This document shows, in pieces, positions 42,992-52,929 of a stretch of 64,000 bases of DNA. The position numbers were made by a program, and so were the translations under genes. The notes beneath the pieces were generated by a model, which had not been told where the DNA came from, did no database searches, and saw nothing but the letters and a program-made list of their open reading frames with translations. The stretch comes from Roseovarius sp. M141 (GTDB lineage: Bacteria; Pseudomonadota; Alphaproteobacteria; Rhodobacterales; Rhodobacteraceae), in the NCBI RefSeq assembly GCF_024355225.1, contig NZ_VCNH01000008.1, forward strand, positions 2,170,001-2,234,000, read 5' to 3'. Each line of letters starts with the position of its first letter. Positions within the stretch are counted from its first letter, which is position 1.

Positions 42992-43807
42992 TCAGCGGCC
43001 CCTCGCTATCAGCGGGCTGCTGAGGATTGTGCGCGTCGCGCTGGCCACGTCATCGGCGCGCATCAACGTCTCGCCAATCAGGAAGCAGCGCGCACCATAA
43101 CGGGCGATATCAGCCAGATCTTCGCGTGTCTCCAGTCCGCTTTCGCAGATGATGATGCGATCCTCGGGTACGTAGCGGGCAAGGGTGCGCGACGTGTCCA
43201 AAGTCGTCTCGAACGTGTTGAGATCACGGTTGTTTATACCGATCAGGGGCGATTTCAGCGCCTCGGCGCGGCGCAGTTCATCCTCGTTGTGGATCTCGAT
43301 GATCGCATCCATACCCCAATGCGCAGCGGCATTTTCCAGCGCGGCAGCCTCGCCATCGGTGAGGCATGCCATGATGATCAGGATGCAATCGGCGCCAAGG
43401 GCGCGGGCCTCGGACACCTGATAGGTGTCGAACATGAAATCCTTGCGCAGCACCGGCAGATCGCAGGCGGCGCGGGCCTGAGTCAGATATTCATTCGCCC
43501 CTTGAAAGCTGGGTGTGTCGGTCAGGACGGACAGGCATGTTGCGCCGCCTTCGGCATAGGCGGCGGCCAGTGCGGCGGGATCGAAATCGGCGCGAATGAG
43601 GCCCTTGGACGGGCTGGCCTTCTTGATTTCAGCGATCAGGCCGTAACCACTGATCGATGCCTGCAGAAGCGCGTCCTTGAATTTGCGTACCGGCGGCGCG
43701 GCGCGGGCCTTGTCATTCATCGCGTCTGGCGAGGTTTCGTCCTTGGCGGCGGCGACCTCTTGCAGTTTGTAAGCTTTGATCTTGTCGAGAATCGTGGGGG
43801 TGCTCAT
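42992..43807 (-). CDS. trpC: Indole-3-glycerol phosphate synthase
   Basis: Fourth step of tryptophan synthesis, TIM-barrel fold. The 271-residue product has the family motifs [55 protein letters not shown] (active Lys), [30 protein letters not shown] and [11 protein letters not shown]. It is coupled to trpD by an ATGA overlap. Confidence 0.96.
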
Positions 43808-44826
43808 GATGCCTCCGATGTAATTTTTGCCAGCAGATCCAGCCGCTTGCGCGCGGCGCCGCTATCGATACTTTCAGTGGCCAGCCCTGCGCCCTCGCGC
43901 AGGTCCGCCGCCCGGCCGGCTACAACCAGCGCGGCGGCCGAATTCAGCAACACTGCGTCGCGATAGGCGCCGTGTGCACCGTCTAAAAGGGCACGAAACG
44001 CGGCGCCGTTTTCCTGCGGAGTGCCGCCCAGAATATCCTCGAACGGATGCAAGGGCAGGCCGGCATCCTCGGGGTTGATTTCAAATTCGACGATGCTGCC
44101 ATCTTCCTCTAGCGCAGCGACCCAGGAATGACCGGAGATTGCCAGTTCATCTGTGCCGTCGCTGCCGTGGACCAACCACGCGCGCGTCGATCCCAGGCGC
44201 AGCAGCGTCTCGGCCATGGGGCGAATCAGATCGCGGCGATAGGCGCCGGTCAGCTGCCTCTTGACGCCTGCGGGGTTGGTCAGCGGCCCCAGAATGTTGA
44301 AGATCGTGCGCGTGCCCAGCTCGGCCCGCGTTGGGCCGACATGGGCCATGGCCGGGTGGTGCATTGGCGCCATCATGAAGGCGATACCGGCACCTTCCAA
44401 AGCCTTTTCAACGACTTCCGGTCCGACCATCACCTTGACGCCCGACTGCGTCAGGGCATCCGCCGCGCCCGATTTCGAGCTGAGGTTGCGATTGCCATGC
44501 TTGGCGACGCAGACGCCGGTGCCCGCTACGACAAAGGCCGTCGCAGTTGAAATGTTCAGCGTGCCCTTGCCGTCGCCGCCGGTGCCGACGATGTCGATCG
44601 CCCCTTCGGGTGCGCGTACCTTGTGGCATTTGGCGCGCATCACTGCGGCGGCGGCGGCGTATTCATCCACCGTCTCGCCACGGGTGCGCAGCGCCATCAG
44701 GAATCCGCCCATCTGGCTGGGCGTTGCCTTGCCCTCGAACAGGATCGCAAACGCGGCCTCGGCCTCGGTTCGGGTCAGGGGGCGGTCTGCGGCGGTGTCG
44801 ATCAGGGGCTTTAGCGCGTCGCTCAT
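43804..44826 (-). CDS. trpD: Anthranilate phosphoribosyltransferase
   Basis: Attaches phosphoribose to anthranilate. The 340-residue product shows [18 protein letters not shown] (PRPP-binding glycine loop), [17 protein letters not shown] and [35 protein letters not shown]. It is overlapped at both ends by ATGA junctions with trpG and trpC. Confidence 0.96.
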
Positions 44827-45404
44827 GCGGGGATCTTCATCATATCAAGGAAATTTTCCAACAGCGCATGGCCATGCTGCGAGGCGATGGATTCGGGGTG
44901 AAACTGCACGCCCTCGATGGGCAATTCGCGGTGGCGCAGGCCCATGATCGTGCCGTCTGCCAGATGCGCCGTCACCTCCAGGCAGTCCGGCAGGCTGTCA
45001 CGCTCGACCACCAGCGAATGGTAGCGCGTCGCCTCGAACGGTGAGGGCAGTCCGGCAAAGACGCCCTTACCTTCGTGATGCATCCGGCCCATCTTGCCAT
45101 GCACGATTTCACTGTGGCGTATGACGCGTCCGCCAAAGGCCTGCCCGATGGCCTGATGGCCCAGGCAAACGCCCAGCAGGGGGATGCCCGCATCCGCCGC
45201 CGCCAATATCAGATCTAAACATATACCGGCCTGATCAGGGTCGCACGGACCGGGGGACAGCAAGATGCCCGCCGGTTTCAGTGCCAGTGCGGCGGCGACA
45301 TCCAGCGCGTCGTTGCGGTGCACCACCACATTGGCGCCTAATTCGCCAACATAGTGCACCAGATTATAGGTGAAACTGTCATAATTATCGATAAGCAACA
45401 GCAT
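44823..45404 (-). CDS. trpG: Anthranilate synthase component II (glutamine amidotransferase)
   Basis: Supplies ammonia to TrpE. The 193-residue product starts [23 protein letters not shown]. It has the nucleophile Cys in [17 protein letters not shown] (about Cys80) and the catalytic His-Glu in [10 protein letters not shown]. The ATG at 45404 was chosen because all family members begin here; the longer [10 protein letters not shown] start at 45434 is also open. First gene of trpG-trpD-trpC-moaC. Confidence 0.95.
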
Positions 45405-45574
45405 CTTGGCCTGTCCGTGTTGGTAAGAGCCCATGATCGTACCCCATCCCGTGATTGGGGGTGGAGGCCGGGGGGCCGGTCACGATATACTTGTTCAGGC
45501 TTGGCCCCGAGGGTCAAGGGGCCGAAGGCGGGAAACGCCGCGCGCGAGGGACATGCAAGGGGGAATCGGGCGAC

Positions 45575-47517: not shown

Positions 47518-47529
47518 CTGGGGCCACGC

Positions 47530-47549
47530 CAAATTTTCGCGAAAATTTG
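47530..47549. repeat. 20-base perfect palindrome downstream of trpE
   Basis: CAAATTTTCG-CGAAAATTTG reads the same on both strands. It sits between the trpE stop (47582) and the pseudouridine synthase start. It has no loop, so it could be a protein-binding site or form a hairpin in either transcript. Confidence 0.6.
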
Positions 47550-47554
47550 CGCCA

Positions 47555-47574
47555 CGAATTTCAGTGAAAATTCG
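47555..47574. repeat. Second palindrome paired with the 20-base one
   Basis: CGAATTT (47555-47561) and AAATTCG (47568-47574) surround a 6-base centre. The two palindromes are 25 bases apart centre to centre and share AATTT/AAATT arms, so they look like two copies of one site, with this copy diverged. Confidence 0.5.
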
Positions 47575-47581
47575 GCGTGCA

Positions 47582-49088
47582 TCAACTGTTGCCGTCGCCA
47601 CCAAAGCGGGCAGCATCCGCTGCGGCGCGGCGGATCGCGTTGGATTTATGGACGGTTTCCATATATTCCGCCTCTGGGTCGCTATCATAAACGACACCGC
47701 CGCCTGCCTGAATGTAAAGGTTTTCATCCTTGACCACGGCGGTGCGCAGGGCGATGCAGATGTCCATATCACCGCCGGCGCTGAAATACCCGACACCACC
47801 GCCATAGACGCCGCGCTTTTCCGGCTCAAGCTCGTCGATGATTTCCATCGCGCGGACTTTTGGGGCCCCTGACACCGTGCGGCAGCCCGGCCAGAAGCGC
47901 GCTGAGCGCGTCCTGATCGTCGGACAATTCGCCCACCACGTTGCTGACGATATGCATGACGTGGCTATAGCGTTCGATGATGAATTCCTCGGTCGGGCGC
48001 ACTGTGCCCACCTTGCAGACGCGGCCCGTGTCGTTGCGGCCCAGATCCAGCAGCATCAGATGCTCGGCCAGTTCCTTGGCGTCCGACATCAGATCGGCCT
48101 CGTTCGCGCGATCCTCTTCGGGCGTGGCGCCGCGAGGGCGGGTGCCGGCGATGGGGCGGATCGTCACCTCGTTGCCAAAGACGCGCACCAGAATTTCCGG
48201 GCTGGCGCCGATAACCTGAAAGCCGCCGAAATTAAAGTAGAACATGAAAGGCGACGGGTTCGTGCGCCGGAGGCTGCGATAGAGCGCAAAGGGCGGCTGG
48301 CGGAAGGGCTGCGTCCAACGCTGGCTGGGCACCACCTGAAATATGTCGCCGGCGCGGATATACTCCTTGGCCTGATCGACGGCGGCCTTGTAGCCATCAC
48401 GCGTGAAATTAGACGTGACGTCACCCTCATCGGCCGCCGCGCCCAGACCACGGCTGGCTTGGGGCAGGGCGCGTTCCAGATCGCGGACCGCATCCATCAC
48501 GCGCTCGGCGGCCTGCGCATAGGCTGCGCGCGCGGACTGTCCTGACCCGGCCCATGCCGGGGCGACGACGATCACCTCGCCCTTGACCCCGTCCAGAACG
48601 GCTATCACCGAAGGACGCAGCATCAGCGCATCCGGCAGGCCCAGCGGGTCGGGGTTCACGTTCGGCAGATGCTCGACCAGCCGGATCATGTCATAACCGA
48701 GATAGCCGAAAAGGCCCGCGCTCGCGGCGGGCAGATCCTCCGGCAGATCAATCCGGCTTTCTGCGATGAGCTGGCGCAGGTTGTCCAGCGGGTTGCCGTC
48801 CTGGGCCTCCCACGCGTCGGAATCAAAGCGCGCCTGCCGGTTGATGCGGCTGGTCTTGCCGTGGCACTGCCAGATCAGATCGGGTTTCATCCCGATGATC
48901 GAATAGCGTCCGCGCACTTCGCCGCCGGTCACCGATTCCAGCATGAAGGCGTCGGTGGCCGCACCCGTCAGTTTCAGCATCAAGGACACGGGTGTGTCCA
49001 GATCGGCAGCAAGGCGGGTATAGACGATCTGGCTGGCTCCGGCCTCGTGGCCGGGAGCGAAATCATCGAAGGTCGGTGTCAGATCCAC
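47582..49088 (-). pseudogene. trpE: Anthranilate synthase component I, frameshifted
   Basis: TrpE makes anthranilate from chorismate with ammonia from TrpG. The gene reads in two frames: 49088-47883 encodes the N-terminal and most of the catalytic part ([51 protein letters not shown]), and 47877-47582 encodes the end ([21 protein letters not shown] ... [18 protein letters not shown]). At the join, homologues have GLPAGTVSGAP; here the bases CTGCCGCACGGTGTC lack five bases after CCG. Translation of frame 1 ends at 47826 after a changed tail. Start is GTG at 49088 behind AGGGGA, 12 bases from ppiD. Without repair or suppression the protein should be inactive. Confidence 0.88.
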
Positions 49089-52740: not shown

Positions 52741-52929
52741 TCAAATGGCGATACGGGCGGCCATCGCGCCCAAGGGCAGGGCGGCGCCCCGGTCGAATTT
52801 AGATTCGAGGCGAACATAGCCCCTGCGCATCGGCGTGGTGGTCAGGGTCATCGCAATGAACGCAGGTCCGGGGCTGGTGAGTGCGCTAAGGATTGCAGCG
52901 CTGAACAACAGGAGCGTCGCGGTATCCAT
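52741..52929 (-). pseudogene. LysE/RhtB-family exporter with a large internal deletion
   Basis: The 62-codon frame begins MDTATLLLFSAAILSALTSPGPAFIAMTLT, the start of LysE/RhtB amino-acid exporters with the SPGP motif. It ends FDRGAALPLGAMAARIAI, which resembles the last helix of the same family. About 150 residues are missing between them, so it looks like an in-frame or near-frame internal deletion rather than a small gene. It begins 3 bases after the fabI stop. Function is presumably lost. Confidence 0.6.

Follow-up and report, generated by a model that had tools for sequence, protein, structure and literature searches.

A private frame break within the conserved motif of trpE in a Roseovarius assembly: very recent deletion or assembly error

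The trpE gene of Roseovarius sp. M141, found in the window (the whole stretch of 64,000 bases analysed here), is read in two frames that join inside a conserved motif of the chorismate-binding domain, with a net shortfall of five bases. The product of trpE catalyzes the step with which tryptophan synthesis begins. The break is genuine in the sequence, private and young. It reveals no new biological system, being an event of an ordinary kind in a familiar gene. To a real, very recent and private 5-base deletion in trpE of this strain we give an even chance; we lean slightly towards such a null mutation, an assembly error being nearly as likely. The features concerned are as follows.

47826 to 49088, minus strand: trpE 5' reading frame, with a GTG start, encoding 403 TrpE residues followed by 17 out-of-frame residues and a stop
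47874 to 47884, minus strand: junction of the two trpE frames, with the net five-base shortfall within the GLPAGTVSGAPK motif
47582 to 47875, minus strand: trpE 3' reading frame, encoding the last 97 residues from an internal GTG

On the minus strand, trpE extends from 49088 to 47582 and measures 1507 bases instead of the 1512 expected for 503 codons and a stop; from this comparison of lengths, the net shortfall is five bases. Frame 0 (49088 to 47826, 420 aa) is open through the GLP of the motif, and the second frame, which holds the remaining TrpE residues and terminates at 47582, resumes at TVSGAPK, the TrpE-like reading of the 3' piece beginning one codon before the internal GTG. When the 503-aa TrpE of an uncultured Roseovarius (L035/G060) was used as a tblastn query, its residues 1–405 matched 49088–47874 and its residues 406–503 matched 47878–47585, the two matches abutting in two frames. 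The initial annotation had described two overlapping frames and five bases missing from the motif, and both are borne out by the sequence, the tblastn matches and the lengths; its coordinates for the break (47876–47884) are correct, allowing for a play of a few bases in the position of the junction. Downstream of trpE, before the pseudouridine synthase gene, the gap (47520–47580) contains an A+T-rich palindromic stretch (AATTTTCGCGAAAATT, then a half-palindrome resembling it); the 31-base pattern of this gap has a single copy in the genome and belongs to no repeat family there.

Against the TrpE profile TIGR00564, the 5' piece scores 395.2 bits (profile positions 2–368 of 455) and the 3' piece 141.4 bits (positions 370–454), neither alone reaching the cut-off of 517.7 bits. 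A public 503-aa protein, P0001, scores 562.6 bits with the same profile; since the two pieces score separately and the intact protein exceeds the cut-off, the gene at this locus is a broken trpE and, as read, does not encode a working TrpE. The chorismate-binding domain is likewise discontinuous, its frame breaking within the PAGTxSGAPK segment.

P0001 is in effect an intact twin of the window gene: it is identical to the window pieces over the first 403 residues and the last 98 (501 of 503 residues), and it carries the conserved motif unbroken. It represents a cluster of 5 member sequences on 3 contigs, the longest of 32,092 bases, and its origin may be a second assembly of this strain or a member of the same species; the next protein after it, P0002, shares 385 of the 403 N-terminal residues. 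The existence of an otherwise identical intact protein indicates that the break is confined to this strain or to its assembly, and that the species is not auxotrophic by descent. No truncated 420-aa form was present in the best 120 of 8000 matches to the 5' piece (lengths of 469 and up), and for the 3' piece the top identity was 95% among the best 120 of 2937 matches, which were proteins of 53–170 aa; thus, among the matches listed for either piece, none represented an independent record of this break. A truncated form could be hidden within the P0001 cluster.

A DNA search of 60 genomes, including that of the strain itself, gave matches in 46, among them all 35 other genomes of the genus. From 29 of these 35 genomes, and from the GTDB collection (the top 80 of 569 related places), a set of 109 loci (L006–L114) was assembled, the two parts of which are not independent samples of species. 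In all 109 related loci, trpE forms one open frame with the motif PAGTVSGAPK, this frame spanning no fewer than 480 codons between two stops or between a stop and the end of the contig, so the split is neither a family trait nor a chance reading. The nearest relative compared, L035/G060, has a trpE 88% identical in DNA and 95–96% identical in protein, and its TrpE of 503 aa is unbroken and matches the window in two pieces. Plasmid-borne relatives were at best 78% identical, none being close to the strain. In combining a frame lesion with intact orthologues, the window gene looks like a pseudogene made by a recent frameshift.

The same loci bear on the idea that the protein is made in spite of the break, either by a ribosomal +1 shift that joins the frames in the cell or by assembly of the two pieces as a split enzyme. 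A net +1 shift from frame 0 is what would be needed, and the second piece does have a GTG at its start, but the shifted product would still be without residues of the conserved motif. No conserved shift site was found, all 109 loci being in one frame; since neither these loci nor P0001 need a shift, there is no evolved signal, and we regard this reading as extremely improbable.

Selection on trpE was examined over 403 + 97 codons, with the damaged motif omitted. For the window paired with L035 the dN/dS ratio is 0.049, and those of other pairs among the relatives range from 0.055 to 0.086. With 13 other sequences as outgroups, the 22 amino acid differences between the window and L035 comprise 3 private to the window, 6 private to L035, 12 seen on both sides and 1 seen on neither, and the private synonymous codons number 21 and 20, respectively. 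Judged by its codons, trpE is free of decay and of relaxed selection, and the frame break is its single lesion. The earlier suggestion that the decay is recent or the shift an assembly error is therefore strongly supported, by the otherwise identical intact protein as well as by the lack of relaxed selection. An auxotrophic lineage in which the loss of trpE is old would also show a broken frame and no second trpE in the assembly, as is seen here, but the solitary lesion, the low dN/dS, the fewer private changes than in the relative, the otherwise identical intact public protein and the retention of the other trp genes all argue against such a long-standing pseudogene, which we consider very unlikely.

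That the cells carry an intact trpE and that five bases were lost in the consensus, through an assembly or sequencing error, is a serious contender to which we assign a somewhat less than even probability. It is favored by the otherwise identical P0001 in public data, which might be another assembly of the same strain, by the perfect conservation on either side of the break together with the low dN/dS, and by a completeness estimate of 100 in an assembly that lacks an alternative trpE. An otherwise identical intact protein is also what such an error would produce, and counts against a real deletion, as does the retention of trpE by all free-living relatives. However, the loss of five bases outside a homopolymer is an unusual consensus error. 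In addition, the junction DNA strand folds no better than its shuffles (z 1.23, with 178 of 200 shuffles folding at least as well), and there is thus no hairpin to explain a dropout.

To test whether the assembly is prone to indels, we compared 800 kb of it with 1.2 Mb of a relative, G029, the trpE of which is 84% identical. A first pass, over 400 kb at 65% identity, had flagged 4 of 83 ORFs. The larger pass covered the 122 ORFs that had matches at 70% identity or more (47,671 aligned residues), and gave the following: i) 105 ORFs aligned in one frame over at least 90%, ii) 10 aligned partially, with one frame of the assembly open across all or nearly all of the aligned part, and iii) 7 were flagged as split, namely trpE, a transposase broken in this assembly, and 5 ORFs that our crude calling had extended upstream of their real start. 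Stops occurred within the alignments of 15 of the 122 ORFs; in 13 of these the stop lay in a leading stretch that was very short or poorly conserved, one ORF had a stop three residues before its end, and the last was an antisense shadow that is also one of the 10 partial ORFs. Hence trpE is the sole non-transposase gene genuinely split among the 122 compared. Within the window, 35 of the 36 ORFs of G060 that have matches align without a split. The assembly thus shows no abundance of small indels, which favors a real deletion and makes an isolated error less likely.

Two further observations were made during these comparisons. In the L139–L142 region of the assembly (G000:C8, about 2320074–2321281), the N-terminal part of a transposase copy is in a frame different from that of its remainder, as judged against its relative in G029. 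At 52744–52863 of the window, the match is limited to residues 159–198 of a 198-aa G060 ORF, representing either a lost gene or a spurious ORF.

The initial annotation had also proposed that the strain might use another TrpE. The assembly (4,515,828 bases in 9 contigs, with completeness 100 and contamination 3.02) was searched with PF00425, which gave three matches, the two trpE pieces and one PabB; apart from trpE itself, a DNA search for a second trpE across it matched just 111 bases of the gene of this PabB, at 70% identity. No other TrpE is therefore present in the assembly. As the only other PF00425 protein there, and a member of the same enzyme superfamily, PabB (C8:3100660–3101424) might be thought to supply anthranilate instead of TrpE. 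However, it is intact and exceeds the PabB cut-offs (NF005698, 541.0 against 452 bits; TIGR00553, 375.5 against 328.4 bits), falls far under the TrpE cut-off (TIGR00564, 229.9 against 517.7 bits) and has the motif GSITGAPK, the serine form of the motif being typical of aminodeoxychorismate synthases. Substitution by PabB is hardly credible, and the readings other than a real null mutation and an assembly error hold, even when combined, only a small share of the probability.

The remaining genes of the pathway that lie close to trpE are listed below.

44823 to 45434, minus strand: trpG, glutamine amidotransferase subunit, intact (TIGR00566, 242.3 bits, cut-off 121.05)
43804 to 44826, minus strand: trpD, anthranilate phosphoribosyltransferase, intact (TIGR01245, 361.3 bits, cut-off 199.05)
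42992 to 43807, minus strand: trpC, indole-3-glycerol phosphate synthase, intact (NF001370, 416.1 bits, cut-off 348)

These three genes (45434–42992) lie on the strand of trpE, as befits the neighborhood of a TrpE gene, and each scores over its NCBIfam cut-off, in agreement with their earlier description as intact. Between trpE and trpG are a pseudouridine synthase gene and a deacetylase gene, the latter encoding a polysaccharide deacetylase (PF04748; 45455–46984) on the strand opposite to that of trpE and trpG. The products of trpA and trpF exceed a curated and a Pfam cut-off, respectively, and a 409-aa PALP-family protein encoded after trpF is taken to be TrpB on the basis of its place and sequence. 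Like trpG, trpD and trpC, these three genes are intact.

If the five-base deletion is real, translation would leave its frame within GLPAGTVSGAPK in the chorismate-binding domain, and the stop 17 codons after the shift would remove the last fifth of TrpE, so that no anthranilate synthase component I would be expected to be produced. The strain would then depend on a supply of tryptophan, indole or anthranilate, barring takeover by a revertant. Because the rest of the pathway is intact and the formation of anthranilate would be the only missing step among those checked, any of these three compounds should restore growth. What is observed is the frame break in the assembly, the intact relatives, the otherwise identical intact public protein, and the absence from the assembly of a second trpE and of relaxed selection on the gene; the presence of the deletion in the cells, the loss of activity and the auxotrophy are inferred.

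A stronger version of the deletion reading is that the strain is a natural tryptophan/anthranilate auxotroph of very recent origin, the other species of its genus having retained trpE, and that it would use tryptophan, indole or anthranilate from neighbors such as algae. We consider this unlikely; if true, it would be a fresh dependence caught ahead of any decay. More generally, a real deletion would make the strain a clean null mutant of very recent origin that still has its other trp genes, and one that could be of some help in following the onset of auxotrophy in marine bacteria. The main value of the case is as a warning, since automated annotation would label the strain a tryptophan auxotroph. 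Among the papers searched, there was none joining Roseovarius with tryptophan auxotrophy and none combining trpE, frameshift, pseudogene and tryptophan auxotroph; judged by titles and the openings of abstracts, nothing was found on this trpE gene.

Among known systems, the locus resembles TrpE (TIGR00564; PF04715 and PF00425) in its sequence across both pieces and in its proximity to trpG, trpD and trpC, but differs in its frame break within the chorismate-binding domain. Aminodeoxychorismate synthase component I (PabB) belongs to the same superfamily and has a motif that aligns with the broken TrpE segment, whereas it is intact, is encoded elsewhere in the genome and scores as PabB rather than TrpE. 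The closest parallel to the break itself, and a precedent for its being an error, is hisD of Azospirillum brasilense Sp245: according to the relevant portions of the published account, a predicted amino acid gap in this organism was a sequencing error that frameshifted hisD, as shown by Sanger sequencing (PMC5764234). In both cases a conserved amino acid biosynthesis gene of a free-living alphaproteobacterium is affected by one small indel, and those portions of the account describe no surrounding decay, as for trpE here. The hisD break, however, consisted of one inserted base, which Sanger sequencing and the fitness of mutants disproved, whereas that of trpE is a shortfall of five bases.
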